Shown here piece by piece: positions 10,568 to 27,258 of a stretch of 55,651 nucleotides of DNA. Position 1 is the first letter of the stretch. Every line of letters starts with the position of its first letter. Below the pieces are notes generated by a model. That model was not told the DNA's origin. It worked only from the letters and a program-made list of their open reading frames with translations, and searched no databases. This DNA comes from Clostridia bacterium. Its GTDB lineage: Bacteria > Bacillota > Clostridia > Christensenellales > Aristaeellaceae. The stretch spans positions 1 to 55,651 of the forward strand of contig JAFUCP010000245.1 in NCBI GenBank assembly GCA_017459565.1, written 5' to 3'. Position numbers and translations under genes: made by a program.

Positions 10568-11508
10568 GGCAGCGCCTCGACGGGCACGGGGATGCGGTCC
10601 ACCAGGTGCATCAGCCGCGCCTCCGCGTCCTCGCGCTTCAGGCCCGCCCCGGCGGTGACGCGGTGGGACAGCACGCAGGGCGCCATGCGGCGGATGTCCT
10701 CCGGCAGGGCATAATCCCGCCCGGAGAGCGCCGCGCAGGCCTGCACTGCCTTGTACAGCGCAATGGCGCCCCGGGTGGACACGCCGCAGCCGAAATCGCC
10801 CCCGCGGGTGCCCGTCACCAGCTCCATCAAATACCCGGCCACCGCGTCGGAAACCTGCACCCGGCGATAGTTTTCCCGGACCCAGGCGGTCTGCTCATCG
10901 GTCACGGCCCGCCCGATGCCGCCTATGATATCCACCGTGTCCTGCCGCCTGAGGACCGCCAGCTCGTCCTCCCGGTCCATGTAGCCCAGCGCCAGCCGCA
11001 TGAAAAAGCGGTCGATCTGGGCCTCCGGCAGCGGGAAGGTGCCGTAGGATTCCAGAGGGTTCTGGGTGGCCATGACCAGAAAGCGCTCCCCCAGCGGCCG
11101 GGTCTGGCCGTCCACGGTGATCTGCCGCTCCTCCATGGCCTCCAGCAGCGCCGCCTGCGTGCGCGGTGTGGCACGGTTGACCTCGTCCGCCAGGATCACA
11201 TCGTTGAACAGCGGGCCGGGCCGGAAGCGGAACTCGCCCTGCTTCTGGTCGTAAAAGTTGATGCCCGTCAGGTCCGAGGGCTGCAGATCCGGCGTGAACT
11301 GCACGCGGCTGAAGCTGCCCCCGATGGCGCGGGCAAAGGCGCGCAACAGCATGGTCTTTCCCGTGCCGGGCACATCCTCCAGCAGCACATGGCCGCCGCA
11401 GATATAGCAAATCAGCACCTTTTCAATCTGGTCCGCCTTGCCGACGATGGCCCGGGACACGGCGGAAACGACGCTGTCCCTGTATTCGACGAATTTTGGC
11501 ATCTCCAT
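10564..11508 (-). CDS. MoxR-family AAA+ ATPase
   Basis: MoxR ATPases act as chaperones that mature or remodel protein complexes. The 314-residue protein shows Walker A GTGKT at 48-52, Walker B ILADEVNR (Asp108-Glu109), sensor 1 MATQNP and the C-terminal lid domain. It starts at the first of two close ATG codons after GAGGTG. It heads the operon MoxR-DUF58-DUF4129. The promoter is not obvious in the gap 11509-11631. Confidence 0.95.
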   Translation of the reverse strand: MEMPKFVEYRDSVVSAVSRAIVGKADQIEKVLICYICGGHVLLEDVPGTGKTMLLRAFARAIGGSFSRVQFTPDLQPSDLTGINFYDQKQGEFRFRPGPLFNDVILADEVNRATPRTQAALLEAMEERQITVDGQTRPLGERFLVMATQNPLESYGTFPLPEAQIDRFFMRLALGYMDREDELAVLRRQDTVDIIGGIGRAVTDEQTAWVRENYRRVQVSDAVAGYLMELVTGTRGGDFGCGVSTRGAIALYKAVQACAALSGRDYALPEDIRRMAPCVLSHRVTAGAGLKREDAEARLMHLVDRIPVPVEALP

Positions 11509-11631
11509 GCAAGCACCTCTTTACGGTACGTTTTCCTGTTTGTAATACATTATAACCATTTCCCCTGCGCCGTGCAAGGGTTACGGCGCGATATCGGCCC
11601 ATAACCGCCGTGATTCCGTCCGGGCGGGGAC

Positions 11632-11661
11632 TTGTGGGCTTTGTGTTTTTCTGATATAATA
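11632..11661 (+). promoter_or_regulatory. Promoter of rhaB-mrnC-rlmB-yacP-sigH
   Basis: TTGTGG (11632-11637), an 18-nt spacer and TATAAT (11656-11661) with an upstream TG (extended -10). It lies about 60 nt before rhaB. No separate promoter was found ahead of mrnC. Confidence 0.7.
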
Positions 11662-11722
11662 GGTATAGTTGTAATGAGTGGCAGAATGTCCATTCACAAA
11701 ACGCATGACGAGGAGTGATACC

Positions 11723-13201
11723 GTGAAGACGCTGAACCTGTTGGGCTTTGACTTCGGCGCGTCCAGCGGCAGGGCCATGCTGGGCACGCTCAGCGACGGC
11801 AAGCTGGATATCCGCGAAATCCACCGCTTTTCCAACGACCCTGTGATGCTGTGCGGCCGGTTCGTGTGGGACGTGCCGCGCCTGGTATATGAGATGAAGC
11901 AGGCGCTCCTGAAGCTCTCCCACATGGACGTAAAGGTGGACGCCATCGGCATCGATACCTGGGGCGTGGACTACGGCCTGCTGGACAAAAACGGCCATCT
12001 GCTGGGCCTGCCGGTGAACTACCGCGATGACCGCACCCTCGGTATGCGGGAAAAGGTGCGCGAAATCATCCCGGACGCGGAACTGTTCGCCCGCACGGGC
12101 CTGGCCTACAACCAGTTCAACACGCTCTACCAGCTCTACGCCATGCGCCAGGAGGGCGACCCCACGCTGGACGCCGCGGAGGAGCTGCTGTTCATGCCGG
12201 ATCTGCTGGCCTATCTGCTCACAGGCAGCAAGGGCACGGAATACACCATCGCGTCCACCAGCGAAATGATCAACCCCTATACCCGCGACTGGGACCGGGA
12301 GCTGCTGGAAAGGCTGGGCATCCCCACGAAGATGCTGGGCGAGGTGAAGCTGCCGGGCACCGTGCGCGGCACGCTGCTCAAAGACATTGCCCGGGAGTGC
12401 GGCGTGGATGAGATCCCGGTCATCGCCGTGGGCGGCCACGACACCGCCAGCGCCGTGGCCGCCGTGCCCGCCAGGGACGCGGACTTTGCCTACATCAGCT
12501 CCGGCACTTGGTCGCTTCTGGGCGCGGAGCTGCCTAGGCCCCTGTGCGCGGAGGGCGTGATGAACGCCAACTACACCAACGAGGGCGGCGTGGACGGCTC
12601 CATCCGCCTGCTCAAGAACATCATGGGCCTGTGGATCATACAGGAGTGCAAGCGCGAATGGGACCGCCGCTCAGACGCCGTGGATTTCGCCGGGCTGGTG
12701 GAGCTGGCCATGGCCGCGCCCGCCTTCAAGGCCATCATCGATGTGGACGACCCTTGCTTTCTCGCTCCCGGGGACATGCCCGCCCGCATCCGGGAATACT
12801 GCCGCAAAACCGGCCAGGCCGTGCCCGAGGGCCGGGGCGAGATTTCCCGCGTGATTTACGAGGGGCTGGCCCTCAAGTACCGCTGGGCCATCGAGCGGCT
12901 GGAAAGGGACATGCTGGGCAGGCCCATCAAGAGCCTGAACATCGTGGGCGGCGGCAGCAAAAACGCGCTGCTCAACAAATTCACCGCCGAGGCCATCCGG
13001 CGCCCCGTCATCGCCGGCCCCAGCGAGGGCACCGTGATCGGCAACCTGCTGATGCAGGCCGTGGCTCTGGGCGAAATCGAGGATATCTGGGCGCTGCGCC
13101 GGGTGGTGGAGGCCTCCTTCCCCACAGAGACGTTCACGCCCGAAACCGACGGCGCGGCCTGGGACCAGGCCTACGCGAAGTACCTGAAGCTGTTTGCCTG
13201 A
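11723..13201 (+). CDS. rhaB: Rhamnulokinase
   Basis: RhaB phosphorylates L-rhamnulose to rhamnulose 1-phosphate in the cytoplasm. The 492-residue protein is the usual length for this FGGY-family kinase. It begins LGFDFGASSGRAMLGTL (phosphate-binding loop) and carries IDTWGVDYGLLD, GHDTASAVAAVP and the C-terminal NIVGGGSKNALLNKF adenosine motif. I chose GTG at 11723 because AGGAG sits 7 nt upstream; upstream in-frame codons lack a site. No rhaA or rhaD homologue is adjacent. The tandem class II aldolase at 25.1 kb is a distant candidate partner. Confidence 0.93.
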   Translation: MKTLNLLGFDFGASSGRAMLGTLSDGKLDIREIHRFSNDPVMLCGRFVWDVPRLVYEMKQALLKLSHMDVKVDAIGIDTWGVDYGLLDKNGHLLGLPVNYRDDRTLGMREKVREIIPDAELFARTGLAYNQFNTLYQLYAMRQEGDPTLDAAEELLFMPDLLAYLLTGSKGTEYTIASTSEMINPYTRDWDRELLERLGIPTKMLGEVKLPGTVRGTLLKDIARECGVDEIPVIAVGGHDTASAVAAVPARDADFAYISSGTWSLLGAELPRPLCAEGVMNANYTNEGGVDGSIRLLKNIMGLWIIQECKREWDRRSDAVDFAGLVELAMAAPAFKAIIDVDDPCFLAPGDMPARIREYCRKTGQAVPEGRGEISRVIYEGLALKYRWAIERLERDMLGRPIKSLNIVGGGSKNALLNKFTAEAIRRPVIAGPSEGTVIGNLLMQAVALGEIEDIWALRRVVEASFPTETFTPETDGAAWDQAYAKYLKLFA

Positions 13202-13207
13202 CGCGCC

Positions 13208-13606
13208 ATGATATTCAATTTTGAACACGGAGCGCTGCCCGGATCGCTGGAGCTGGCCTATCTGGGCGACAGCCTGTACGACCTGTACGTGCGGGAGCAT
13301 CTGATTGTCCGGGGCGGAAAGGTGCGCGCGCTGCACCGCCAGGCCATATCCCTGGTGTGCGCCCACGCCCAGAGCGAGGCGCTGGGGCGCGTGCTGGACA
13401 TGCTCACCGAAGCGGAGGCCGACGTGGTGCGCCGCGCCCGCAACGCCCATCAGAGCCCGCCCAAAAACGCCGATCCCGGCGAATACCACCGCGCCACCGC
13501 CCTGGAGGCGCTGGTGGGCTGGCTGTACGTCACCGGCCAGCGGGAGCGCATGAACGAAATTCTGGCAGCGGCGCTGCCCTTTGAACCACAGCCAAAGGAG
13601 CCTTGA
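13208..13606 (+). CDS. mrnC: Mini-ribonuclease III
   Basis: MrnC is a dsRNA-specific RNase III-like enzyme without a dsRNA-binding domain; it matures 23S rRNA ends in Bacilli and Clostridia. The 132-residue protein has ELAYLGDSLYDLYVRE near the start and EYHRATALEALVGWLYVTG near the end, the two halves of the acidic catalytic site. It starts 6 nt after the rhaB stop and no good Shine-Dalgarno is visible, so translation is probably coupled to rhaB. It is followed by rlmB, yacP and sigH, the order seen in Bacillus, where cysS rather than rhaB is upstream. Confidence 0.93.
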   Translation: MIFNFEHGALPGSLELAYLGDSLYDLYVREHLIVRGGKVRALHRQAISLVCAHAQSEALGRVLDMLTEAEADVVRRARNAHQSPPKNADPGEYHRATALEALVGWLYVTGQRERMNEILAAALPFEPQPKEP

Positions 13607-13608
13607 AC

Positions 13609-14631
13609 ATGAGCAACGATGACAATCGCCGCAAGCCCTATCCGGGCAATCGCGCTCAGGGGGCGGGACGGCGGGTTTATCCCGGCGCCACGGGCGGCGG
13701 GCCCCGGGTGGGCCGCGTGGAGCGCAACGTGCCCCGGGCACAGCAGGTGGACGATGTCCCCGATGCCCCTCAGTGGGAGGGCGACGCGCCTCGCGGGCCC
13801 CGCGCGGCGGTTCACCACGGCAGCGCCTATCGCGCCCCCGCCGGGCCCCGGCAGTACAAGCGCGCCCCTTCGGAGGCCGGCCAGGCTGCGGCCGACCCCA
13901 CGGACGACGGCCATCTGCTGGCCGGGCGCAACCCCATACGGGAGGCGCTCAGGGCCGGAAGGCCGGTGGAAAAGCTGCTGGTGGCCTCGGGCGATCTGTC
14001 CGGCGCGGCCCAGGAGCTGATCCGCATGGCCCGCGAATCCGGCGCCGTCGTGCAGCAGGTGGACCGATCCCGGCTGGATCAGATCTACCCCGCCCACCAG
14101 GGGATGCTGGCCTATGTGGCCGCTGTGCCCTACGCGCAGCTGGAGGACGTGCTGGCCGCGGCCCGCGAAAGGGGCGAGGCGCCCTTTTTGATCCTGCTGG
14201 ACGGCATCACCGATCCCCACAACCTGGGGGCCATCGTCCGCACGGCGGAGTGCGCCGGCGCCCACGGCGTGGTGATCCCGGAGCGCCGCGCGGCGGGGCT
14301 GACCCCGGCGGCGGCCAAGGCCGCGGCGGGCGCGCTGAGCCACATGCCCATCGTGCGGGTCAAGAACCTGAACCGCACCGTTGAGGAACTCAAGGCGCAA
14401 AACATCTGGGTCGTCGGCACCGCCATGGACGGGGAAAACGCCCTGGACGCCGATCTGAGCGGCCCCATAGCGCTGGTCATCGGCTCAGAGGGAGAGGGCA
14501 TCGCCCGTCTGACGCTGGAAAAGTGCGACCGCACCATCTCCCTGCCCATGCTGGGGCAGATCGAATCGCTGAACGCCTCTGTGGCGGCGGGCATCCTGAT
14601 GTATGAGGTCGTCCGCGCGAGGGCAAAGTGA
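13609..14631 (+). CDS. rlmB: 23S rRNA (guanosine 2'-O-)-methyltransferase RlmB family
   Basis: This is an SPOUT-fold enzyme that methylates a ribose in 23S rRNA (G2251 in E. coli). The 340-residue protein has an unusually long, basic and Pro/Gly-rich N-terminal extension (residues 1-95) before the substrate-binding domain (LLAGRNPIREALRAGRPVEK). The three SPOUT motifs follow: DGITDPHNLGAIVRTAE, LVIGSEGEGI and SLPMLGQIESLNASVAAGI. ATG at 13609 is preferred: AAGGAG lies 8 nt upstream, whereas the overlapping TTG at 13603 is too close. It sits directly behind mrnC. Confidence 0.93.
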   Translation: MSNDDNRRKPYPGNRAQGAGRRVYPGATGGGPRVGRVERNVPRAQQVDDVPDAPQWEGDAPRGPRAAVHHGSAYRAPAGPRQYKRAPSEAGQAAADPTDDGHLLAGRNPIREALRAGRPVEKLLVASGDLSGAAQELIRMARESGAVVQQVDRSRLDQIYPAHQGMLAYVAAVPYAQLEDVLAAARERGEAPFLILLDGITDPHNLGAIVRTAECAGAHGVVIPERRAAGLTPAAAKAAAGALSHMPIVRVKNLNRTVEELKAQNIWVVGTAMDGENALDADLSGPIALVIGSEGEGIARLTLEKCDRTISLPMLGQIESLNASVAAGILMYEVVRARAK

Positions 14632-15191
14632 GCGGGGCGCGCGCGGGCAGAGCGCCCCGGCGTATGCTGATCGTGGACGGCTACAACATCATCAACGCCC
14701 GGCGCGACGGCGGCGCGGGCATGTCCGCCAGCACCCTCGCGGACGCGCGGGAACACCTGGTGGCGGAGCTGATGGATTACGCGGGCTATTCCGAGCAGCA
14801 GGTGGTGCTGGTGTTCGACGCCTGGATGTCCGACAGGACCCAGCGCACCGAGGAGCAGCGCGGGGCGGTCACGGTGGTGTACACCCAGAAGGGCGAAATC
14901 GCCGACCGCTACATCGAAAGGCTGTGCGACAGCCTGGCAAACGACATCGAGCTTCGGCGCGTGGAGGTGCGGGTGGCGTCCTCGGACGGGCTGGAGCAGA
15001 CCATCATACTCGGGCGCGGGGCCAGCCGCATGTCTGCACGGGAGCTGATGCTGGAAATGCAGCAGCTGCGTGCGTCGGGCATACAGCAGGTCGCCCAAAG
15101 GCCGGCCTCGCGGCGAAACCCCATCGCGGAACATTTGCCGCCGGAGGTGCGCCAAAAGCTGGATGAAATGAGAAAGGGCCATCGAAAATAG
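14628..15191 (+). CDS. yacP: YacP/Rae1-like NYN-domain ribonuclease
   Basis: The B. subtilis homologue, Rae1, cleaves mRNA in the ribosomal A site. The 187-residue protein has the NYN/PIN signature MLIVDGYNIINARRD, then VVLVFDAWMSDRT, and Asp residues (EIADRYIERL, VASSDGLEQT) that form the acidic metal site. A short basic N-terminal stretch precedes the core. The GTG start overlaps the rlmB stop (GTGA), so the two are coupled. Gene order before sigH supports the assignment. Confidence 0.9.
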   Translation: MSGARAGRAPRRMLIVDGYNIINARRDGGAGMSASTLADAREHLVAELMDYAGYSEQQVVLVFDAWMSDRTQRTEEQRGAVTVVYTQKGEIADRYIERLCDSLANDIELRRVEVRVASSDGLEQTIILGRGASRMSARELMLEMQQLRASGIQQVAQRPASRRNPIAEHLPPEVRQKLDEMRKGHRK

Positions 15192-15201
15192 GGGACGACG
15201 C

Positions 15202-15822
15202 ATGTATACTACACAGGATTTTGAAGGCATGGCGGACGAGCAGATCGTCCTGCTGGCGCAGGATGCCAACGGCGCGGCGCTGGAATATTTGCTGAACAAA
15301 TACAAGAACTTCGTGCGCAGCAAGGCGCGAAGCTATTTCCTCATCGGCGCGGACCACGAGGACATTGTTCAGGAGGGCATGATCGGCCTGTACAAGGCCA
15401 TACGCGATTACCGGGCGGAAAAGCTGTCGTCCTTCCGGGCGTTCGCGGAGCTGTGCGTCACGCGGCAGATCATCACCGCCATCAAGACGGCCACCCGCCA
15501 GAAGCACATCCCCCTGAATAGCTATATTTCGCTGAACAAGCCCATTTATGAGGAGGACTCCGACCGCACGCTGCTGGACGTGATCACCGAGGAGGGCACC
15601 TCCAACCCGGAGGAGATGTTCATCGACCGGGAGGACCTCTCGCTGATCGAGGGCAAGATCGGCCAGATGCTCTCCGATCTGGAAAAGGACGTGCTGGTGC
15701 GCTACATGGAGGGCAAGAGCTATGTGGAAATCGCAGGGGAGATGGGCCGCCACGTCAAATCCATCGACAACGCGCTGCAAAGAATCAAGCGCAAGCTGCT
15801 GAAGTATTTGGAGGAAAAATAG
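15202..15822 (+). CDS. sigH: RNA polymerase sigma factor SigH
   Basis: A sigma-70-family factor; in spore formers SigH drives early stationary-phase and sporulation genes. The 206-residue length fits. Region 2 includes DHEDIVQEGMIGLYKAIRDY, and region 4 ends with SYVEIAGEMGRHVKSIDNAL (helix-turn-helix). It begins MYTTQDFEGMADEQIVLLAQ, close to other SigH proteins. It is the last gene of the rhaB-mrnC-rlmB-yacP-sigH cluster and is followed by a strong terminator. In Bacillus, sigH is followed by rpmG-secE-nusG; here the restriction island begins instead. Confidence 0.93.
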   Translation: MYTTQDFEGMADEQIVLLAQDANGAALEYLLNKYKNFVRSKARSYFLIGADHEDIVQEGMIGLYKAIRDYRAEKLSSFRAFAELCVTRQIITAIKTATRQKHIPLNSYISLNKPIYEEDSDRTLLDVITEEGTSNPEEMFIDREDLSLIEGKIGQMLSDLEKDVLVRYMEGKSYVEIAGEMGRHVKSIDNALQRIKRKLLKYLEEK

Positions 15823-15870
15823 TTTTCCAATATAAAGCGCCGCAGAAAGGCATATAACAGCTTTACGGAT

Positions 15871-15907
15871 ACGGCATAGCCCAAATCACAGCTATGCCGT
15901 TTTATCC
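15871..15907 (+). terminator. Intrinsic terminator after sigH
   Basis: A perfect 10-bp stem ACGGCATAGC/GCTATGCCGT (15871-15880, 15891-15900) with a 10-nt loop is followed by TTTAT. It closes the sigH operon and marks the left border of the lower-GC island. Confidence 0.88.
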
Positions 15908-15960
15908 CCAAAGCACGCATGGCATGAAGAATAGCGCCTGCTCCGTTTGGCCCTTTCGCA

Positions 15961-17238
15961 TTATGAACGAAGCCCCGCAGCGGCCGGCATTGCCATCGCC
16001 GCTATTTCGTCGGACAGTCTGCGACAGAAGGCAGTCAATTCTCCCTGTTTTGTAATAGAGCCAAGGGCAACTTTGACGGCCGAAACCGTCACATCTTCCA
16101 TTTCATAGCTTGAAACAATTTCAGCATGTCCGGATTCGATTTGTCCGCAAGCGAATGTCGGATAGGCAAGAAACAGCCTTTTCGCTCCCGCGGCATGGCA
16201 AAATGCAAACGCTTCATATAGATCGCTTCGATCGATTTCCGGGGATTCCTTTTCAGAAATGGATTTGTATTTCGCATCGACAAGAAAGACCGGCTCCGCA
16301 TAATCGTTGATTGCATAAATCGCCACGTCCGGGTAAACGTTAATCTGTGAGCTTCTTTCGCCGGTTCTCTTGCGCCCCCAGGGTATGGCGGCCTGAGGTA
16401 CGACGCGCAGCCTGCTTCCAAGTCCGACCCGGAACGCTACAGTAACGAGCCATTCCCATATTCTCCATGTGTCGACCATAAAGCCGGGAGACATGATTTC
16501 ACCATTTTCCAGAGAACCTCCCATGCCTGCGACAACATCAAGAGAAAGGTTATAGAGTTCCGTCCATTCCCGGTTTCTTGCGGGAACCTTCAGCCGGTGC
16601 AGGCTCCCTGCCGGCTGCCTGCCAAGCTCCTGTACCGCTCGAATCAGATTCAGCCGAATCGACGCATCCACAACATATGGAAGTACGATTTTCAATGCGG
16701 AGCTGATCGCGGCATTGTACGGATTTGCTCTGTCGAATGACACGCGCTCCTGCGGAACGCCGTCCGGATTTCTTTCAAATATACGTTCGAAATCGATCTC
16801 ACCGTCAACGGAATAATCATAAAACCCTTCGCGGCGGTATTGACGAATGGGTTTTCTGCGCAGGGCCGCATATTCCCGGGCCATGATTCGCCCGGCTATA
16901 TCATAGAGAGAATCTTTATAGGATGTGCCGGATCGAATATGCTCACTCGCAATAACGCTTCCATATTTCGAAAGGGCCGCGAGCAGAAATAACGACGCTC
17001 TCCAATCGCTTTCCACCTGAGGATCGAGCATCTTGGGTATGATCTCAAGCTCCGTGTCCCTGGAAAGGCGCATTTTCCCGGCTATTCCAAGCGCACGGAG
17101 CTTTCCGTCAGATATCACCAAGGCATTGCGGTTAATATGCAGAGCATGTCGAATGACACTGTTTGCCCGGTCTATCAATTGCCGACACGCTTCGGATATT
17201 TCTATGCCCTTGCCGTATTCAACAATCGACAGCTTCAC
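15961..17238 (-). CDS. McrC-like PD-(D/E)XK restriction nuclease subunit
   Basis: In McrBC-type systems McrC is the nuclease that is activated by the McrB motor. The 425-residue protein has a beta-rich N-terminal half and a C-terminal PD-(D/E)XK core. Asp304 lies in VYPDVAIYAI, and Asp321-Ala-Lys323 in VFLVDAKYKS. NREWTELYNLSLDVV is typical of the McrC/LlaJI family. The GTG start overlaps the McrB-like stop (GTGA) and follows GGAGGGAG. It is the last gene of the five-gene island. GC is visibly lower than in sigH upstream or the GH3 gene beyond. The family is well supported; the site specificity is unknown. Confidence 0.9.
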   Translation of the reverse strand: MKLSIVEYGKGIEISEACRQLIDRANSVIRHALHINRNALVISDGKLRALGIAGKMRLSRDTELEIIPKMLDPQVESDWRASLFLLAALSKYGSVIASEHIRSGTSYKDSLYDIAGRIMAREYAALRRKPIRQYRREGFYDYSVDGEIDFERIFERNPDGVPQERVSFDRANPYNAAISSALKIVLPYVVDASIRLNLIRAVQELGRQPAGSLHRLKVPARNREWTELYNLSLDVVAGMGGSLENGEIMSPGFMVDTWRIWEWLVTVAFRVGLGSRLRVVPQAAIPWGRKRTGERSSQINVYPDVAIYAINDYAEPVFLVDAKYKSISEKESPEIDRSDLYEAFAFCHAAGAKRLFLAYPTFACGQIESGHAEIVSSYEMEDVTVSAVKVALGSITKQGELTAFCRRLSDEIAAMAMPAAAGLRS

Positions 17239-18338
17239 GCGTCATCTCCCTCCAGAAGTGATCGATACAATCCATATACAGTGGAACGGTTGATAGCGGT
17301 ATGCGAAAGAACGAATTTTGTTTCCCCGGCAAAGTAAACTTCATTAAGAAAATACGGGGAATCTTCACGCTCCGAATTCAGGATGTATGCCATTGCAACC
17401 GGCTCCCCAAAGAACAGTTCTTCGATATGAGCATAGATCATCGACCAGACATCCAAAACAAAATCCAGCGCGTCATCAATCCCGCTTCCCCTCGGCAATA
17501 TCGAAAGCAGGATTCCCTGTCCCAACTGATATTCCGGGCCGCGGCCGATCACGATCTTCTTATTTATGGCCTCCAGCGCTTTAATCGCAGCGTTGTAAAC
17601 ATCCCGGGCGGACGGATTTTCATTGGGAATTACGTCATCTGGCCGACCCCCAAACCTGGCATAGGCGGGAGCATAATCCGGCGCAAGCTTTACGCTCATC
17701 CATCTGCGCATAAAAGCAACATCGAGCGGCGCAACAGAAACATCGGCCTGGTTCATCGCCGCGAGAATATAGAGATGCGGCGAAAACGCATATTCGATAT
17801 AGCCGTCCGTTTCAGGGCTTAAGATTTCAAAAAACTGTGTGTTCTCTGCCGGGGTATTATCGTCTCCGAGCCTCTTGTCGGGCTCTATCGTGACAATACT
17901 GCCCCCGAACACTTCAATCGCCGGCCCTCGATTAAGCTCGTCAATTATCAGCAGCGCCGCGCTGTCGGGTTGTTTGGCAAACTCGTTGGCGCGATAAAGG
18001 ATGCCTTCGCTGATTTGGTATCCTTCCGTTCCATCATATCGCGGCGTGATTCCAGTCAGGAAATCACGGTATTTTGAATTTTGATGAAGCGTCGTTCTAA
18101 AGACCTTCCTGCGCGGCCTTTGCAGCATGGGCAGCGCTCCCAAATTTTCGTTCTCAGGGATTGCCGGAATCGGGATTGCCGCGCCCGGATGGTGTGTCGG
18201 CATCGGATCGATGGCCACGCCGCGCTCAAACAAACGGGCAACATCGTTCATCAGCTTTGATTTCCCGGTTCCCGGCGCGCCCATGAGCAGAACGTTTTTC
18301 TTTTCCTGCAAATTCCTTAGAATGTCACACGCGTCCAT
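17235..18338 (-). CDS. McrB-like AAA+ NTPase lacking the N-terminal DNA-binding domain
   Basis: McrB-type motors use GTP in the characterised enzymes and drive translocation that triggers McrC. The 367-residue protein starts only 19 residues before Walker A GAPGTGKS (20-27). Walker B is LLIIDELNRG (129-138). The McrB-family signature MNxxD appears as MNQAD (195-199), followed by LDVAFMRRW with the arginine-finger pair. McrB and LlaJI R1 proteins usually carry an N-terminal recognition domain of 150 or more residues; it is absent here. The ATG follows AAGGAG. The start overlaps the end of the 180-residue upstream protein by 14 nt, suggesting a fixed stoichiometry. Confidence 0.9.
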   Translation of the reverse strand: MDACDILRNLQEKKNVLLMGAPGTGKSKLMNDVARLFERGVAIDPMPTHHPGAAIPIPAIPENENLGALPMLQRPRRKVFRTTLHQNSKYRDFLTGITPRYDGTEGYQISEGILYRANEFAKQPDSAALLIIDELNRGPAIEVFGGSIVTIEPDKRLGDDNTPAENTQFFEILSPETDGYIEYAFSPHLYILAAMNQADVSVAPLDVAFMRRWMSVKLAPDYAPAYARFGGRPDDVIPNENPSARDVYNAAIKALEAINKKIVIGRGPEYQLGQGILLSILPRGSGIDDALDFVLDVWSMIYAHIEELFFGEPVAMAYILNSEREDSPYFLNEVYFAGETKFVLSHTAINRSTVYGLYRSLLEGDDA

Positions 18339-18867
18339 TCGTATAACTCCTTCCGTTCTCTATATCGACATAGCCCATGGCCGTAATATTCGCATTGCGC
18401 CGCGCAGTCAGCCCTTCAATGATCGGGGCTTTTATCGCCGGATGCCATTTATCATGCAAAAGGGAGTCAAGACTGGTAAAGTACGGACAAGCTCTTCCAA
18501 AGTTATCGAGTACAATCAAAAGCACACAGTCTCCTGAATCCGTCGGTATTTCATCCTGAGGAAAACATTCGTGTATTCTCCCGATTCTCACTTCGTTGGG
18601 CCGCGAATTTGTCGGGGGATGGATTTCCGCCTGAGTGGGAGCATGTTTTGCCCAAATAAACTGTCCCCTGAGAACGCCATCGTCTTCCTGTATAAACATT
18701 CTTTGAAACACCGGGAAGAATTCCGAAGCAGGGCTGAAGCGCAGATCTCTCGCGCCGCCTCCGTTCTGTTTGACGTTGGAAGTTGCGGTGAATTTGCTCA
18801 AATCTCCCGCGACAATGCGCTTGTATACCACGAGCTTCACGCCCAGATTCTGTGTTTGCCGAGTCAT
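18325..18867 (-). CDS. Unrecognised 180-residue protein of the restriction island (candidate DNA-recognition subunit)
   Basis: I do not recognise this family with confidence. The ATG at 18865-18867 follows AAGGAGG exactly; the longer open frame to 18975 has no such site and overlaps the methylase. The N-terminal part shows VVYKRIVAGDLSKFTATSN and NGGGARDLRF, and the middle is rich in aromatic, Arg and Pro residues. There is no signal peptide or membrane segment. It sits between the gamma methylase (4-nt overlap) and the McrB-like gene (14-nt overlap). Because that McrB lacks its recognition domain, I infer that this protein supplies DNA recognition. A detached B3-type domain as in LlaJI R1/EcoRII is one possibility, based on weak resemblance only. 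Confidence 0.8.
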   Translation of the reverse strand: MTRQTQNLGVKLVVYKRIVAGDLSKFTATSNVKQNGGGARDLRFSPASEFFPVFQRMFIQEDDGVLRGQFIWAKHAPTQAEIHPPTNSRPNEVRIGRIHECFPQDEIPTDSGDCVLLIVLDNFGRACPYFTSLDSLLHDKWHPAIKAPIIEGLTARRNANITAMGYVDIENGRSYTNGRV

Positions 18868-21014
18868 TCTGCGCCTCCTTCTGACAATTCTGTCATTTCT
18901 GTCGGAATGTATGCTTTCGCGTTCTGCGCAAATCCCGCTCTTTCCCTTGTCGTATATGTGCCCTTGATTTTGCAAAAACGTTCCTCTGCAATTGAGAGAA
19001 ACAAATCCCGGGTATAGGTCGCGCGCGTCTCTCCCTTCAGCTTAGGCTGGCGCCGGTCAAGCAGAGGAAAATCGCGCATTAAAAGCTCAAGATCGGAAAA
19101 CGCAAGTCCGTATGCATCAGCGACGGCAGCATCAAGCTCGGCGCGCAGCTTTCCCATTTGTCTGTCGGTATAATATTCCGATCCCATGCATGAAAGCTCT
19201 TTGCTCAAAGATATAATCCTTTCCGCAAGCTCCCCTTGCAGGTCGATATCGGGCATGGGCAGGCTGAACAGCAAGAAATAGTTGACCGTCGTCGAAAGAA
19301 CCCTTCTCAACATCCAGTCAAACACAAAGCTGTTTGTCACGCCGACGAAAAAGAACAAGCGCCTTTGGCCAAATTCTCCCGGGAATACGATGGTCGGCAC
19401 CTTATTTCCGCAAACAACCCCGGCCGGGATGGCCGCGCTCATCATGGCGCGCTCATTTGTCTGCCCGGCAATATCGCAATAACCCGCCCTTTGCATATAA
19501 GCGCGCTTGAGAAGCCTCTCGTTAAGATCATCCGGGCCAACGAAATACTGTGGCTCAATGCTTCCGGCACTTGGAACCCATTTCGCGCTTCTTCCGCTTC
19601 CAGAAACATAGGCCTTCGCGCCGAAACGGAACTGTTGAACCATCCGGCCCTCGACGACAGGAAGATCATCTTCGGAGCGCCGCGCATGAAAGATCGGCCT
19701 GTCATTCGTCATATCAACCTCACGGGCAATATCGACGCGCCACGCATCCTTCCATTCCGTACCGTTGGCGCATATTTTGAAGAACAAATCCTTTTCCGCG
19801 ACGCTTCGACATTCGGGAACCGTCAGATCAGGGCGTATTTTTTCAAGCTCACCGGCAATAAAGTCTATCGCTTCGGTCCTTTTGACCGCGAGATTTTCGC
19901 CTTTACATATTTCGAATGAAAAACCGGCGCAACGGCGCTTTTCACAGTAAGCCTTTTTATGTGAGACAATCACAAACTTAAACCGGGTATCAATTTCAAA
20001 ATAGTTCGCCTTGTTGTCAAGAAGATAGTATTTGAGCCCTTCGCTGCGCTCCAGCAGAAATCGTCTGAGAGATTCCGTGCCAAGCGAACGAATAATCCCC
20101 GCCGGAACGATATACGATAGATGACCGCCGGGCTTCAATATGGAAATCGCCCGTTGAAGAAACGCCATGTACATGTCCGGCTCGGCGCTTCCGAGAAGCG
20201 AATAGCGTTCTTTCAGCGCTCTGCTGTAATTCAGAGTATCCTGTCTTTCCGCAAGAAACCGCTCATGATTAAACGAATCATATCCGGAACCATAGACATG
20301 GTAATTTTCGGTTGTCTTGTTGACAAAGGAATGAAGCGAAAGCTTTATCCTTCCCCATGGAGGATTGCCAACCACGATATCGAAAGCAGGAAATCCGGCG
20401 TCATCCGCAAGAAGGCTGTCACACGCCCGCCATTTCCCGCACATCCCGCGTATCGCATCAACGCTCGAGGCATGTACCGACAGCGCAATTCTCGCTCCCC
20501 TGAGAGCATATTCCGATAAATCGAAGGCGTATATGCACTCTGAAATCCATTGATTATAGCTGTCAGAATATTTTTTATAATAAAGCTCCGCAACCGCGGC
20601 AAGCAGTATTCCCGATCCCGCGGCAATGTCCACGATTTTGCTGTCGCGCTCAAGAACGCACCGACAGTCCTCCGCAACAAACTGCGCAAGCCGAAAATCG
20701 GTATAAAAGATACCGTTCTTCTTTTTCTCGGAAATCGTGGCCGGTTCACGGGACAGGCCGGACAAAATCAGCGAAGCGGGAATCGGTATCATGGATAAAA
20801 TCATCGAAAGCCGCTCAGCGGCGTCCAGTATTTTGGATGAATCGTCAACTTCGATTTCGAATACTTTCCAATATTCACATATATCAAACCCGCCGATCCT
20901 GGCCGCACACGCCTCAAGAATCAACAGTCTGTATTCGTAATCCGGGGACACCTCTATAAGCAATTGCTCGGCATTGTATAGGAGCGATTGTTCCAATGTG
21001 GATGGCCTGCTCAT
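18864..21014 (-). CDS. Large N6-adenine DNA methyltransferase (gamma class, Eco57I/type IIG-like)
   Basis: The 716-residue protein uses S-adenosylmethionine to methylate adenine. Motif X is KKNGIFYTDFRLAQF (98-112), motif I is VDIAAGSGILLA (128-139) and motif IV is VVGNPPWGR (NPPW at 217-220). The order X-I-IV and the NPPW tetrapeptide indicate a gamma-type N6-adenine enzyme. The region beyond about residue 400 is long enough to be a target-recognition domain. I see no nuclease motif at the N-terminus, so it is probably methylase only. It starts at ATG after GGAGGGG and overlaps both neighbours by 4 nt. Confidence 0.9.
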   Translation of the reverse strand: MSRPSTLEQSLLYNAEQLLIEVSPDYEYRLLILEACAARIGGFDICEYWKVFEIEVDDSSKILDAAERLSMILSMIPIPASLILSGLSREPATISEKKKNGIFYTDFRLAQFVAEDCRCVLERDSKIVDIAAGSGILLAAVAELYYKKYSDSYNQWISECIYAFDLSEYALRGARIALSVHASSVDAIRGMCGKWRACDSLLADDAGFPAFDIVVGNPPWGRIKLSLHSFVNKTTENYHVYGSGYDSFNHERFLAERQDTLNYSRALKERYSLLGSAEPDMYMAFLQRAISILKPGGHLSYIVPAGIIRSLGTESLRRFLLERSEGLKYYLLDNKANYFEIDTRFKFVIVSHKKAYCEKRRCAGFSFEICKGENLAVKRTEAIDFIAGELEKIRPDLTVPECRSVAEKDLFFKICANGTEWKDAWRVDIAREVDMTNDRPIFHARRSEDDLPVVEGRMVQQFRFGAKAYVSGSGRSAKWVPSAGSIEPQYFVGPDDLNERLLKRAYMQRAGYCDIAGQTNERAMMSAAIPAGVVCGNKVPTIVFPGEFGQRRLFFFVGVTNSFVFDWMLRRVLSTTVNYFLLFSLPMPDIDLQGELAERIISLSKELSCMGSEYYTDRQMGKLRAELDAAVADAYGLAFSDLELLMRDFPLLDRRQPKLKGETRATYTRDLFLSIAEERFCKIKGTYTTRERAGFAQNAKAYIPTEMTELSEGGAE

Positions 21015-22048
21015 TTTTCGTCCCCTCCGCCGCGCCGGTAATCTATCAGGTATTCATTGACCTCCGGCCTGTGTAAACGGGCAACCTGATTGGGACGATA
21101 GCGCCCAATGGCACCAAGGTTGAACATCTCGACCGTCCCGGTTTTTTTCAGCTCCCCGATCAGTTGGTCGAGCTGGACATGCCCATCGTTGCTGTATGAA
21201 ATCAGGACCCTTTTTGCCGTCTGCGAAGAAGCAAGGCTGACAAGCGCCCTGAGCGCCTTTGCCTTGTAGCAGAACACAGACGCCTTGCTTTTCCACGGTC
21301 TAAGTCCAGTCACGCCGCTGACGACAGGCTCGTCGCCAAGGGTAATGGTTTCCAAAATGTGATAATATGAAGCATACTGTCGCTTTGTATATGGCGGGTC
21401 AAGATAGACTACGTCCTCCTCTTCGCTCCTGATATCGAAAACATCATCGGTGGAAGCGGAATAACTGACTTTTTCCTTTCGCAAATCAAGCGGCATGAGA
21501 CATAGCGGCTCCAGAGCCTGAGGCTGCCAATTTGACAGGAAGCACCCATATGTCCCAGCGATATTCGCAATGTTGTTTACCGCATAGATGAGCGTAGACA
21601 TAAGCAGCACAAATTCCTTGTCGCTGATCGTTCCGTCCTTCTTCCACCGATGGACCGTCGCAACAGCGCCGTCAATCTTTCTGGCGTTTTCCTCTGTAAA
21701 ATATCCGCGTTCAATTCCGACCTGATTGAGCGAAGCGGGCGAATACTCTCTCCAGATAAAACCGCTTAGTTCGGCCTGATTGAGTATGTCCAGCGCTTTC
21801 TGATATCCTCCAAGCGCGGAAAACGGAACATCCTCTGTTGACAGAAGTCTCGCTTCCGACATAACAGCTGCACTGTACATCATATCATTGATCTTTATTT
21901 TCCAGCCCAAATCCGCGGCTTTGCTGGCTACAATGCCGGTTCCACAGAAGGCATCGATGAAGCACCCAGCCTTTTTGTCAGGAAAGCCGAGATGCCGAGC
22001 GATGTCGTCGGCAACTCTTGCCTTTGAGCCGATATATCTGTATCCCAT
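21011..22048 (-). CDS. D12-class N6-adenine DNA methyltransferase
   Basis: The 345-residue protein begins with the D12-class signature GYRYIGSKARVADDI. Motif I is FIDAFCGTGIVA (30-41) and motif IV is DPPYTKRQYASYYH (DPPY at 217-220). These are hallmarks of Dam/MboI-type adenine methylases. It is the first gene of the island, 82 nt downstream of the only visible promoter. Two adenine methylases in one operon suggest an asymmetric recognition site, with each enzyme protecting one strand; that is inference. The Shine-Dalgarno (GGAG) is about 10 nt from the start, weaker than for the other island genes. Confidence 0.92.
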   Translation of the reverse strand: MGYRYIGSKARVADDIARHLGFPDKKAGCFIDAFCGTGIVASKAADLGWKIKINDMMYSAAVMSEARLLSTEDVPFSALGGYQKALDILNQAELSGFIWREYSPASLNQVGIERGYFTEENARKIDGAVATVHRWKKDGTISDKEFVLLMSTLIYAVNNIANIAGTYGCFLSNWQPQALEPLCLMPLDLRKEKVSYSASTDDVFDIRSEEEDVVYLDPPYTKRQYASYYHILETITLGDEPVVSGVTGLRPWKSKASVFCYKAKALRALVSLASSQTAKRVLISYSNDGHVQLDQLIGELKKTGTVEMFNLGAIGRYRPNQVARLHRPEVNEYLIDYRRGGGDEK

Positions 22049-22129: not shown

Positions 22130-22158
22130 ATTTTATCATATAAAACCTGAATCAACAA
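22130..22158 (-). promoter_or_regulatory. Promoter of the restriction-modification island
   Basis: On the minus strand: TTGTTG (22153-22158), a 17-nt spacer and TAAAAT (22130-22135) with TGA just upstream (extended -10). It is 82 nt before the first methylase start and is the only convincing promoter for the five genes. Confidence 0.65.
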
Positions 22159-22159
22159 T

Positions 22160-22367
22160 ACAAATCGACCCGCACGCGAAATATAAACGCAAAGGCGCCG
22201 CGCAGCAAGGACCCTATTTCTGTTTTCGCAGGCTTTGGATGCATAATAACAGCGACCATATATGGATGCCTCCACATGGCCGCTGATACGGGTCTTTTCA
22301 CGTCTGCTGTCTGTATTCTTGTATCATGGCGCTCCCACGCGCGATTCCCGCGGCATTTTACTTTCTT
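22160..22367. other. Intergenic stretch right of the restriction island
   Basis: I see no gene, RNA or clear repeat here. Composition changes from the AT-richer island to the GC-rich YcxB-like gene, so this gap is a candidate boundary. No direct repeat, integrase or tRNA is visible. No clear terminator for the minus-strand gene at 22368 is found. Confidence 0.5.
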
Positions 22368-22893: not shown

Positions 22894-24963
22894 TCACACC
22901 TTCACGGCCGCGTGGCCCGTCAGTTCCTCAGTGCGCGCGTCCGGCTGGCCCAGGCCCACATAGAAGACGGGCACGCCCTCGTCCACCGGCGCGCCGGCGG
23001 CGTCCACCACCTTCAGCCGGTCCGCGGGAATGTCCAGGCAGACCTTCACGGTCTCGCCCGTGGGAACGCGGACGCGGGCGAAGGCGCAGAGCCTGGGGTT
23101 GCGGGGCGCGTTTTCAGAGCCCTCGTTCTGCACATAGACCTGTACGACCTCGTCGGTATCCACGCCGCCCGCGTTCACCACCTCGGCCTCGACGCCGCTT
23201 GCCGTGCGCTTCGCGGCGGCCACGCGGCAGTCGCCGTAGGTCAGGCCATAGCCGAAGGGATACAGCGGCGCTTCCTCGATGTAGCGATAGGTGCGGCCCC
23301 GCATGGCGTAGTCGGTAAACTCCGGCATCCGCTCAAGCTGCTCATTCTTATAGAAGGTCACGGGCAGCTTGCCGGAGGGGGAAATTTTGCCCAGCAGGAT
23401 ATCCGCCACGGCGCTGCCGCCCCGCGCGCCGGGGTACCAGGTCAGCAGCACGGCGTCCGCCTTTTCGGCGCCCGTTCCCAGATCGATGGCGCTGCCCGCC
23501 ATCAGCACGATGGCGGTGGGCTTGCCCACGGCCAGCACCGCGTCCATCAGCCTGCGCTGGCTTTCAGGCAGCAGCAGGTCCAGCTTGTCGCCGGAGGCGG
23601 CGGCATTGCCGGTGTCGCCCTCCTCGCCCTCCAGCGTCTCGTCCAGGCCCAGCACCAGCAGCACCGCGTCAGAACATTCCGCCACAGTCAGCGCCTCGGA
23701 GAGTCGGTCGTCCGCCACGGCCAGGTTTTCCTCCCGGTCCCTGAACAGGTGGCAGCCCTGGCTGTACAGCACGCGCACATCGTCGCCCAGCGCGTCCTGC
23801 AGGCCCTCCAGCACCGTGACGTACCGGGAGGACGTGCCATGATAGTTGCCGATGAGCGCGGCGCGGCTGTTGGCGTTGGGCCCGATGACGCCCAGGGTAT
23901 TCAGCTTCGCCCTGTCAAGGGGCAGCATACCGTCGTTCTTCAGCAGCACGCAGCTCTCCTCGCTGGCCCGGCGGGCCGCGTCCAGATGCTCCCGGCACTC
24001 CACCTTCTCATAGGGAATTTGATCAAATTCGCTGCCCTCCATCAAGCCCAGCAGATACCGGCAGGTGAACAGCCGCACGGCGCTGCGCCGAAGCTGCGCC
24101 TCGGAGACAAGTCCCTTTTCATAGGCCTTCATCAGATAGACATAGGTATTGCCGCAGTTCACATCACAGCCGTTTTCAATGGCCAGCGCGGCGGATTCCT
24201 CCGGCGTATCGGTGACCATGTGGCCGGTGTGGAAATCCCTGATAGCCCAGCAGTCGGACACGAAGTGGCCCTCAAAGCCCCATTCGTCCCGCAGGGTCCT
24301 TTGCAGCGCGGCGCTGCCGCAGCAGGGTTCGCCGTTGGTGCGGTTGTAGGCGCCCATCACGGCCTCCACCCCCGCGTCCACCAGCGCCTTGAAGGCGGGC
24401 AGATAGGTTTCGGCCATGTCCTTCTTTGTCGCCTCGGCGTTGAAGTGGTGGCGCAGCGCCTCCGGGCCCGAATGGACGGCGAAATGCTTGGCGCAGGCGG
24501 CGGACTTCATGACCTCGCCCTCGCCCTGCAAGCCCTTGACATAGTTTACGCCCAGCTGGGAGGTCAAAAACGGGTCCTCGCCATAGGTTTCGTGGCCACG
24601 GCCCCAGCGGGGGTCCCGGAAGATGTTCACATTGGGGGACCAGAAGGTCAGCCCCTTATAGATATCCCGGTCCCCATGGGCGGCGGCGGCGTTGAACTTC
24701 GCGCGGCCCTCGGTGGCCGCAACGTCGCCCAGCCTGCGCACCAGCGCGGGGTCGAAGGCCGCTGCGATGCCGATGGCCTGGGGGAAGGATGTGGCCGTGC
24801 CCGCGCGGGCCACGCCGTGAAGCGCCTCGTTCCACCAGTTGTAGGCGTCAATGCCCAGTCGTTCAATGGCGGGGGCGTCATAGCGCAGCTGGCTGGCAAC
24901 CTCCTCCACGGTCATGCGGTCCACCAGTGCCTGTGCCTTTATGCGAGCCTGCTCTCGGTTCAT
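22894..24963 (-). CDS. GH3 beta-glycosidase (beta-glucosidase/beta-xylosidase), intracellular
   Basis: GH3 enzymes release terminal beta-linked sugars. The 689-residue protein has no signal peptide, so it should act on imported oligosaccharides. It has the GH3 N-terminal barrel (YNWWNEALHGVARAGTATSF), the catalytic nucleophile Asp237 in FVSDCWAI, the second alpha/beta domain and a C-terminal Fn3-like domain (EVVQVYVQNEG). The opening motif and DPRWGRGHETYGEDP are common to plant-type beta-xylosidase and beta-glucosidase members, so the substrate is not settled. The start ATG follows GGGAGGG. A consensus promoter lies 46-74 nt upstream. Confidence 0.92.
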   Translation of the reverse strand: MNREQARIKAQALVDRMTVEEVASQLRYDAPAIERLGIDAYNWWNEALHGVARAGTATSFPQAIGIAAAFDPALVRRLGDVAATEGRAKFNAAAAHGDRDIYKGLTFWSPNVNIFRDPRWGRGHETYGEDPFLTSQLGVNYVKGLQGEGEVMKSAACAKHFAVHSGPEALRHHFNAEATKKDMAETYLPAFKALVDAGVEAVMGAYNRTNGEPCCGSAALQRTLRDEWGFEGHFVSDCWAIRDFHTGHMVTDTPEESAALAIENGCDVNCGNTYVYLMKAYEKGLVSEAQLRRSAVRLFTCRYLLGLMEGSEFDQIPYEKVECREHLDAARRASEESCVLLKNDGMLPLDRAKLNTLGVIGPNANSRAALIGNYHGTSSRYVTVLEGLQDALGDDVRVLYSQGCHLFRDREENLAVADDRLSEALTVAECSDAVLLVLGLDETLEGEEGDTGNAAASGDKLDLLLPESQRRLMDAVLAVGKPTAIVLMAGSAIDLGTGAEKADAVLLTWYPGARGGSAVADILLGKISPSGKLPVTFYKNEQLERMPEFTDYAMRGRTYRYIEEAPLYPFGYGLTYGDCRVAAAKRTASGVEAEVVNAGGVDTDEVVQVYVQNEGSENAPRNPRLCAFARVRVPTGETVKVCLDIPADRLKVVDAAGAPVDEGVPVFYVGLGQPDARTEELTGHAAVKV

Positions 24964-25008
24964 TGATATACCCTCCCGTCGCGTATTTTGTAAAATTACC
25001 ATGTAAAT

Positions 25009-25037
25009 ACAATACGATGAATTCGCTGGGTTGTCAA
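25009..25037 (-). promoter_or_regulatory. Promoter of the GH3-ycxB operon
   Basis: On the minus strand: TTGACA (25032-25037), a 17-nt spacer and TATTGT (25009-25014). Between it and the start lies an AT-rich dyad (ATTTTGTAAAAT, 24984-24995), which could be an operator; no regulator gene is adjacent. Confidence 0.75.
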
Positions 25038-25051
25038 GAATCAATATGCGG

Positions 25052-25095
25052 TCAAAACAAGCGGTGCGCAGGGTTTGATAAGCCCTGCGCACCGC
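25052..25095 (-). terminator. Intrinsic terminator of the tandem aldolase gene
   Basis: A perfect 13-bp stem GCGGTGCGCAGGG/CCCTGCGCACCGC (25061-25073, 25083-25095) is followed on the minus strand by TTGTTTTG. It lies 30 nt after the aldolase stop. Confidence 0.88.
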
Positions 25096-25124
25096 CTTGT
25101 CCCGAATTCGGGAGCGGCCGCAAA

Positions 25125-26414
25125 TCACTCCAGATGGAACGCCTTTTCGATTTCCTTGACTTCATCCGCGGTGATGTACACCACCTCGCCGATATCCCGG
25201 GCGGCGATCATGGCGGCGGCGGAATACTCCAGCACCTCCAGACGGTCGTAGGCGTTGAGCAGAGAGGCGCCCGTGACGATCACGCACTGGTTGTTCACGA
25301 TGATCACCGGGTGCTTCGCATCGAAGATCTTCGCGGTGCCCTGAATGTCCGTGCGGCTGGCGGCATAGGGCAGGCGCACCACGTCCCGCAGGCTGATGTA
25401 GCTTTCGGGGATCAGGCGGGAATCAAACTCCGCGTCCGTGACCGCGAAGCTCATGATGGCCGGCGGGTGGGCGATGATCACGGCGTTGATCTCCGGGTGG
25501 GTGGCGAAGATTTCATCCAACAGGCGGGCGGCGCGGCTGGGCTTCTTGCCCATCTCGCGCATACCGCGCTTGATGTGTACAATGTCCTCCGGCTCCAGAT
25601 ACTTTCTGTCCTTGTTGTAGGGGGTGGTCAGGAAGCTGCCGTCCGACAGGCGCACGGCGAAGGTGCCCTGGGTGGAGGTGAACAGCCGCTGGTCATAGCT
25701 GCGGTGGATGAACTCGCACAGGTCGCGCCGGGCGGCGTTCTCCTCGCTGGAATGGCCGCCGGGGATGAACTCGTCCAGGTTGGGGGAGGTGATGGAGCGG
25801 TCCAGATCGATCTGCTCCTCGGTCAGCGAACGGGGCGTGCCCAGTTTCTTGGCGTCGATCTCCAGCCGTCCGCAGAAATCCAGCGTCTCAAAGGCCATGA
25901 AGGCGGAAAACAGGTCCTTGTGGCCGATGACCACGCCGTGGTTCTCCATCATGACCGTGTTATAGCCCTTCTCGAACTCCGCGGCGATGTACTCGCCCAG
26001 CTTCTTGGAGCCGGGGACCTCATATTTGGCGTAGGTCACCTTGCCGCAGACCTCGCTGGCGTTGGGCACCAGGGAGGTATCGGGAATCTTGCGGGCCAGG
26101 GAGAAGGCCACCAGCGTGGGCGGATGGGCGTGCAGTATGCCCTTGAGGTCGGGCCTGCGGCGGTATATTTCACTGTGGAAGGGCAGCTCCACGGAGGGCT
26201 TGTGGGGGCCGATGACGGTGCCGTCGGGCTTGACCTGGCACATGTCCGCCCGGGTCAGGTTGCCCTTGTCGATGCCGGAGGGGGTGATCCAGATGTCGCC
26301 GTTGTCGTCCTTAATGGAGAGGTTGCCGCCGGAGGTCGTGGTCATGCCATAGTAATAGATGCGGTTCATGATCATCACCAGCTGGTCAGCGGGATGAAGC
26401 AGTTCAAAGCGCAT
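25125..26414 (-). CDS. Tandem class II (zinc) sugar-phosphate aldolase, second domain degenerate
   Basis: Class II aldolases of the fuculose/rhamnulose-phosphate family cleave ketose 1-phosphates using a zinc ion. The 429-residue protein is about twice the single-domain length. Domain 1 (residues 1-210) has TTSGGNLS, SGID, the catalytic Glu76 (SVELPFH), zinc ligands His95 and His97 (LHAHPP) and His159 (ENHG). Domain 2 (about 222-429) keeps the fold pattern but has Ala at the Glu position (SRAARL), IIAHPP with one His lost, and NNQ instead of NHG. Domain 1 should be active and domain 2 probably structural. The start follows AGGAGG. Substrate unknown; a rhamnose link through rhaB is possible. 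Confidence 0.87.
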   Translation of the reverse strand: MRFELLHPADQLVMIMNRIYYYGMTTTSGGNLSIKDDNGDIWITPSGIDKGNLTRADMCQVKPDGTVIGPHKPSVELPFHSEIYRRRPDLKGILHAHPPTLVAFSLARKIPDTSLVPNASEVCGKVTYAKYEVPGSKKLGEYIAAEFEKGYNTVMMENHGVVIGHKDLFSAFMAFETLDFCGRLEIDAKKLGTPRSLTEEQIDLDRSITSPNLDEFIPGGHSSEENAARRDLCEFIHRSYDQRLFTSTQGTFAVRLSDGSFLTTPYNKDRKYLEPEDIVHIKRGMREMGKKPSRAARLLDEIFATHPEINAVIIAHPPAIMSFAVTDAEFDSRLIPESYISLRDVVRLPYAASRTDIQGTAKIFDAKHPVIIVNNQCVIVTGASLLNAYDRLEVLEYSAAAMIAARDIGEVVYITADEVKEIEKAFHLE

Positions 26415-26469
26415 GGGAGTTCCTCCTTTTCATTGATCGATAATCTGGAAAGCAAGTGGCGCGTCGGGC

Positions 26470-27039
26470 TCAGATGACAGCCAGGGAGCCCACCGCCATC
26501 AGCGTCATGATCAGGCAGGCGGTGACGTTGCCCAGCAGGATGACCAGCCCCGCCTTGACCCTGGGCATGTTGAACAGGGAGGCGATGGCGCTGCCCGTCC
26601 ACACGCCGGTGCCCGGCAGCGGCAGGGCCACGAAGATATACAGCGCCAGCAGCTCCGCCGTGTCGGCGGAAAAATGGGCACGCAGGCCCTTTTTGTTCTT
26701 TTCGTTCATGGATTCCCGCTTCTTCGCGGCGTGCCGCTCAAGCCACGCGGCGAACTTCTGCACCGGCTTGATGGGCAGGGTATAGAACCAATCCAGCACC
26801 GGGCGCAGCAGCAGCAATATGAAGGGAATCGGGATGCTGGAGCAGACCAGCGCCAGCAGATATGAAAATACCGCCGGCATACCCATGCGCACCGCCACCG
26901 CCACGGCATAGCGCCCCTCGAAGGTGGGCACCATGCTCAACAGCGCCGCCGTAATGATCTCGCGGGTATGCTCCTGCCAGACAAAGGCGGTCTGCGCCGC
27001 GGCCAGAAGGTTGGAATTGTAAAGCAGCTTGTTCAGCAT
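26470..27039 (-). CDS. Small membrane exporter family protein (COG2426, Sm_multidrug_ex)
   Basis: The 189-residue integral membrane protein has hydrophobic segments near residues 28-40, 46-85 and 130-185. The first half carries LLSMVPTFEGRYAVAVAV and the second LYIFVALPLPGTGVWTGSAIASLF, the paired Pro/Gly-rich motifs of the COG2426 'putative small multidrug export' family. A basic cytoplasmic loop (about 95-115) separates them. It starts at ATG just after GGAGGT. It is upstream of the aldolase on the same strand with a 55-nt gap, so the two may be co-transcribed. The transport role is by family name only. Confidence 0.85.
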   Translation of the reverse strand: MLNKLLYNSNLLAAAQTAFVWQEHTREIITAALLSMVPTFEGRYAVAVAVRMGMPAVFSYLLALVCSSIPIPFILLLLRPVLDWFYTLPIKPVQKFAAWLERHAAKKRESMNEKNKKGLRAHFSADTAELLALYIFVALPLPGTGVWTGSAIASLFNMPRVKAGLVILLGNVTACLIMTLMAVGSLAVI

Positions 27040-27258
27040 ATGACCTCCGTAAATCGCAAGTTTTTGTCCTTCGCGCTTCCATTATACTATATCTATGCGC
27101 GTCCATCATATCATATCTTGGTAAAATCTGATTTGCGCGGCGGATAAATCGCATTTTTCATAGGTAGTTTCAACAACATGGCAGGAAAAGTCACATTCAT
27201 CTGCTACAATAAATATGAATATTTGTATTCAGACAAAAGCGTAAAAAGGAATAGATAC

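Follow-up and report, generated by a model that had tools for sequence, protein, structure and literature searches.

A mobile five-gene cassette joining an McrBC-type engine to two N6-adenine-family methylases and a predicted stand-alone B3 reader

Few McrBC-like machines cut unmethylated DNA. E. coli McrBC, a Type IV system that is not known to include methylases, combines an McrB motor with an McrC nuclease. It cuts modified DNA, and the N-terminus of its McrB is the recognition domain (PMC12707154). A McrBC-related Type II group that cuts unmethylated DNA and carries paired methylases (LlaI, BsuMI and LlaJI) was recognised in 2008 (PMC2614495). LlaI and BsuMI have a short McrB (337 and 343 amino acids (aa), respectively) in a restriction cassette of three open reading frames (ORFs) (PMC1459862). 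LlaJI of the Lactococcus plasmid pNP40 comprises four genes, with two 5-methylcytosine (5mC) methylases, an McrB-like GTPase and an McrC-like nuclease, and its site is asymmetric and unmodified (PMC1459862, PMC7680126, PMC12707154). In LlaJI.R1, a B3 recognition domain, solved for a relative from H. pylori, is fused to the motor (PMC7680126, PMC12707154). The CoCoNuT census set McrBC branches associated with methylases aside for later publication (PMC11090510). Here we describe a five-gene cassette at positions 15961-22048 of a 55,651-nucleotide (nt) contig from a Clostridia bacterium (JAFUCP010000245.1, assembly GCA_017459565.1; the whole stretch is referred to as the window). We consider it likely that this cassette constitutes a mobile restriction-modification system, Type II-like in kind, that combines an McrBC engine, two strand-marking adenine methylases and a detached B3 subunit. 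Its five open genes are read from the minus strand, in the order given here:

21011..22048, minus strand: D12-class N6-adenine DNA methylase, 345 aa (Pfam PF02086; FCGTG and DPPY)
18864..21014, minus strand: gamma-class N6-adenine DNA methylase, 716 aa, Eco57I / Alw26I-Eco31I-Esp3I-like (PF07669, TIGR02987; NPPW)
18325..18867, minus strand: X, 180 aa, predicted stand-alone B3-fold DNA-recognition protein (AlphaFold2 models, PDB matches, conservation)
17235..18338, minus strand: short McrB-like AAA+ motor, 367 aa (AAA_5, motifs, PDB match 6hz4)
15961..17238, minus strand: McrC-family PD-(D/E)xK nuclease, 425 aa, GTG start (PF10117; PDVAI..LVDAKYK)
22135..22163, minus strand: possible weak promoter, TTGTAT-17-TATGAT, 5' of the D12 start

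Neighbouring genes overlap by 4 nt (D12/gamma), 4 nt (gamma/X), 14 nt (X/McrB) and 4 nt (McrB/McrC). Gene lengths and overlaps are as an initial annotation of this DNA had given them, and the catalytic motifs are intact. The single promoter visible to that annotation can be made out by eye, but is missing from the sites returned by a threshold scan. Four of the five proteins score above the curated Pfam cut-offs (PF02086; PF07669 with PF02384; PF07728; PF10117). The cassette thus encodes an McrB-like NTPase and an McrC-like nuclease alongside dedicated DNA methylases, and belongs with the LlaJI/LlaI/BsuMI group. What is new is the pairing of D12 and gamma methylases, the predicted stand-alone B3 reader and the PF10117 nuclease. 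As far as sequence tells, the initial annotation is supported in proposing a Type II-like system driven by an McrBC motor, whose two methylases come from N6-adenine families. Word searches of full-text literature brought up nothing that we recognised as a description of this five-gene adenine version, a result that concerns these searches and makes no claim of absence from print.

Which base would the two methylases modify? The D12 enzyme scores 99 bits against MethyltransfD12 (PF02086) and has the motifs FCGTG and DPPY. The gamma enzyme scores 54.9 bits against Eco57I (PF07669) and 40.8 bits against N6_Mtase (PF02384), and has the motifs AAGSG and NPPW. All three scores exceed their cut-offs, so both proteins fall in N6-adenine families rather than among 5mC methylases such as those of LlaJI, and adenine would follow as the methylated base from family membership. 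Both enzymes are found in each of the 18 other loci that we examined, wherever the contig covers the place. The m5C or orphan methylases that would have spoken against the initial annotation were therefore not encountered. Its statement that the known McrBC-type Type II methylases are 5-methylcytosine enzymes was too broad: LlaI, of the same group (PMC2614495), has an adenine methylase with McrBC-like proteins. The D12 enzyme shares 34% identity with a phage protein that is annotated as 'LlaI methylase', and matches the PADLOC model PDLC03287 at positions 2-334 of 646, which is the first half alone of a two-domain methylase model. LlaI, encoded by the Lactococcus plasmid pTR2030, has one two-domain methylase rather than D12 plus gamma; its enzyme is reportedly termed a 'type II A methylase' in the title of Hill 1991. 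The paired methylases of BsuMI from Bacillus subtilis are m5C enzymes. No relative of the D12 enzyme turned up in our scan of viral contigs.

The gamma enzyme resembles the methylases of Alw26I, Eco31I and Esp3I, with 117.3 bits against TIGR02987 over residues 98-648, under the model's cut-off of 353.5. In those systems the partners of this methylase are a Type IIS nuclease and an m5C enzyme. In M.FokI, two N6-adenine domains are joined, and each serves one strand of an asymmetric site (PMC3990576). By analogy, the gamma enzyme, which is unrelated to D12, would serve the second strand of an asymmetric site, and N6-adenine methylation of such a site, as the initial annotation proposed, is what we infer.

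Could methylation instead serve exclusion without cleavage, in the manner of BREX, DISARM or MADS, with McrBC as a replication-blocking motor? The gamma enzyme does match MAD2 models, in PADLOC at E 5e-20 and in NCBIfam at E 3e-7, the latter far under the cut-off, and it matches PglX marginally; linkage of McrB-like GTPases with methyltransferases and with a DISARM-like system has also been reported (PMC11090510). However, the cassette contains no further BREX, DISARM or MADS component, and the McrC nuclease motif is kept in 18 of 18 loci, which makes this explanation quite improbable.

What, then, is X, which the initial annotation had listed as an unknown 180-residue protein? It still fits no known family above threshold: Pfam gives one sub-threshold match (E 0.055), and NCBIfam, like PADLOC, gives none. 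AlphaFold2 models were obtained for two relatives of X that are 29% identical, with pLDDT values of 87 (87.1, pTM 0.85) and 89. When compared with the PDB, these models match B3 DNA-reading domains, including the N-terminal domain of LlaJI.R1, far above any other fold; B3-type entries occupy ranks 1-25 for one model and ranks 1-24 for the other. X is therefore predicted to be a stand-alone B3-fold DNA-recognition protein. Its conserved stretch 21-44 (S30, GGGARD, R43) is the candidate N-arm, and T86, R89 and E92 form the candidate C-arm. The candidate N-arm is invariant, which suggests that members from three phyla, taking the window to be from one of them by its gene neighbourhood, may recognise one site or sites that differ little. 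Like the cassette as we propose it, CglI and NgoAVII read an asymmetric site through a B3 domain while a separate NTPase drives cleavage, but they use an SF2 ATPase, a PLD nuclease fused to B3 and a C5 methylase (PMC4267653).

Two sequence comparisons for X gave no significant match. In a comparison with EcoRII-N, hhalign placed the conserved stretch in register, at E 0.23, and the profile hidden Markov model scored -1.8 bits against up to 5.9 for shuffled sequences; the register is suggestive, but the scores do not reach significance. The second comparison concerned a Lactococcus plasmid with an apparent LlaI locus beside an AbiA gene (L007:6538-7611), in which the short McrB and the nuclease have open frames and the adenine methylase gene is annotated as several fragments. 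Taken as the LlaI locus, it has a separate 252-aa ORF before the short McrB, and this ORF has no match to X. Relatives of the 252-aa protein were absent from the viral-contig scan, and a plasmid search returned the protein itself alone. X has no match in phages; in viral contigs it was found at a single locus (L024), of the same extent and range as L022.

The McrB-like protein scores 44.6 bits against AAA_5 (PF07728), above the cut-off, and displays the motifs GAPGTGKS, LIIDELNR and MNQAD. Its Walker A motif begins at residue 20, leaving no room for an N-terminal DNA-binding domain. Because this McrB is short and lacks that domain, whereas LlaJI.R1 fuses B3 to the motor, the cassette looks like LlaJI.R1 split into a reader and a motor, whose genes overlap by 14 nt in the window. 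In a phmmer search, McrB matches PDB entry 6hz4, '5-methylcytosine-specific restriction enzyme B' (E 2e-16, 63 bits); in BLASTP it scores 52 bits against the LlaI-type motor. Since these are different programs, 63 against 52 bits leaves the descent of McrB unsettled. Among 398 genomes of the phylum, 37 of the 39 other McrB matches (E 1e-10) lie within open frames of 419-952 aa. The remaining two, L069 and L070, lie in frames under 400 aa, and by eye no methylase was recognised among their listed ORFs of at least 110 aa. At L069:4964-7374, which belongs to a different genome of the phylum, the 302-aa McrB follows a separate gene of 492 aa whose C-terminus looks EVE-like; this may be a second case of a reader split from its motor.

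McrC scores 68.8 bits against PF10117 (cut-off 23.9) and contains PDVAI..LVDAKYK, a PD..DAK motif. It does not match the nuclease encoded at the LlaI-type locus L007, which in turn matches no Pfam family at E 0.01. A possible origin of this variant is one separate from the methyl-dependent McrBC branch. Might the cassette nonetheless be a modification-dependent Type IV McrBC system, in which X reads a foreign modification and the methylases are mere neighbours or supply an immunity mark? Its McrC belongs to PF10117, as is characteristic of Type IV McrBC, without resembling the LlaI-type nuclease, and its McrB matches a solved methyl-dependent McrB, although no LlaI or LlaJI motor was found in the PDB for comparison. 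Against this, E. coli-type McrBC is not known to have a cognate methylase, whereas both methylases accompany the present cassette at every examined locus whose contig covers the place. X has no match to the SRA, YTH or EVE families, and B3 restriction enzymes other than LlaJI are known to read unmodified DNA. The LlaJI B3 domain does so as well (PMC12707154). We regard a Type IV system as unlikely and favour a Type II-like one.

How widespread is the cassette? A tblastn search with X of 72,556 plasmid records returned six, and these also come first when McrB, D12 and gamma are each used as the query. Beyond these six, identity drops from 33% to 27% for McrB and from 49% to 39% for D12; gamma falls from 37% (98-99% coverage) to 30% (58% coverage). 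The cassette order is present in all five of the records that were opened, the sixth being a second Pimelobacter plasmid. A scan of genome contigs for X with a single peptide pattern, covering one genome for each of 84,980 species, gave 13 loci, which is a lower bound. In all 13, one strand encodes D12, gamma, X and McrB in the order of the window, and McrC comes next in 12; at the other (L017) the contig ends within McrB. The carriers are Acetobacter, Pseudomonas, Alloalcanivorax, Kluyvera, Enterobacter, Microbulbifer, a Rhodobacteraceae, another gammaproteobacterium, three sphingomonad genera and two Blastococcus. In E. coli, 5 of 5,426 complete genomes have the cassette; four copies are 99.9-100% identical to a Citrobacter copy, and the fifth is 88% identical over 93%. 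Among the carriers are E. coli CFSAN051542, VG888-46E9, MB06232, ES5 and KFu015, and Kluyvera ascorbata ATCC 33433. Of the two E. coli loci that were opened, the first is surrounded by genes of an integrating conjugative element and the second lies about 8 kb from an intA integrase gene. The cassette is mobile: it occurs in unrelated bacteria, often on mobile elements.

Altogether, the gene order of the window recurs in 18 other loci, with L017 cut before McrC and with L006 and L010 representing one record. By their scores, these loci include near copies (L002/L014/L015; L005/L019-L021; L022/L023 and the viral-collection contig L024). Are the five genes one system, or do the two methylases and the McrBC genes form independent, unrelated modules that happen to be neighbours, X being regulatory or otherwise employed? 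Defence genes tend to cluster, and the function of X rests on a predicted fold, both of which would suit two modules. Yet the order is constant in distant taxa, gaps between a stop and the next homologous start are at most 133 nt in the loci measured, and the genes of the window overlap. Moreover, over 11 representatives chosen from 17 loci after removal of near copies, the distances of the five proteins correlate with one another (Mantel r 0.86-0.99, p 0.004 or less), as expected for five genes that travel as a unit. Two unconnected modules are thus highly improbable, and the failure to co-occur that would have undermined the initial annotation was not observed.

Gene content, motifs, conserved order, a motor without a DNA-binding domain, presence on mobile elements and the modelled B3 fold of X together suggest how such a restriction-modification system might operate. 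The D12 and gamma methylases would each mark one strand of an asymmetric target and so protect it. X would bind the unmethylated site with specificity, then recruit or load the short McrB ring, and GTP-driven McrB with the PD-(D/E)xK nuclease McrC would cut foreign DNA. It is the B3 fold, the motifs and the two methylase classes that point to recognition and cleavage of unmethylated DNA. More tentatively, and with somewhat less than even confidence, we suggest that X is a detachable specificity subunit acting in trans, in a logic analogous to that of the Type I S subunit: X alone would pick the site, McrB and McrC would act as a generic motor-nuclease, and the adenine methylases, which differ in class, would protect the two strands. 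Because recognition, motor, nuclease and protection appear on five separate proteins, each function could be deleted or swapped alone. Since E. coli chromosomes carry copies, laboratory strains offer a direct way to test the target site, the phage range and what the B3 subunit does. Such work could reveal the conversion of a methyl-dependent engine into a Type II system through a change of reader only.

Several copies of the cassette carry additional elements. In nine proteobacterial loci (L002, L003, L011-L015, L054, L055, some of them near copies) a small ORF of about 77-88 aa, depending on start choice (MRFTD.KSETLNLRVS..FK), ends 4 nt into the D12 start. Sub-threshold RHH_5 matches in four of four scanned suggest a ribbon-helix-helix regulator; the ORF was not found before D12 in the window, L004, L005, L016-L018, L022 or L023. 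In the sphingomonad group (L005, L019-L021), a 243-aa ORF that resembles a serine resolvase shares 4 nt with the start of D12. In Sphingomonas sp. MEA3-1 the frame of McrC (L005:10097-11200) ends earlier than in the near copies L019-L021 and retains the PD..DAK motif; the ORFs beside it look transposase-like. In Sphingobium baderi pDE3 (L006, L010) an IS66 element lies between the gamma methylase and X, across the start of the record. The Pimelobacter copy has an extra gene (L004:10928-11689) that overlaps McrC by 8 nt and contains an Endonuclease_7 domain (E 4e-11).

In the window, the cassette forms an island of 49-51% GC (16000-21999), against 57-70% (10000-15999) and 58-68% (23000-27999) in its flanks. 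The neighbourhood reads as rlmB-yacP-sigH, by which the host would be one of the Bacillota, and island and sigH adjoin tail to tail. A close SigH is encoded in 23 of the 27 genus relatives searched. We read 17 of these 23 and found no cassette gene beside sigH, with 6 of the 17 contigs ending less than 1 kb past it. X has no other copy among 200 genomes of the family or the 398 of the phylum, the sole carrier being the window's own genome. Given the low GC relative to the flanks, the cassette's absence beside sigH in the relatives read and the lack of X in any other family or phylum genome searched, the island is probably a recent arrival in its host. In four genus relatives (L027, L042, L044, L046), a tRNA-Gly(CCC) gene is found downstream of sigH, at a distance of 134-485 nt. 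The island occupies this place in the window, where tRNA-Gly(CCC) is located at 182-255, 15 kb away on the opposite strand.
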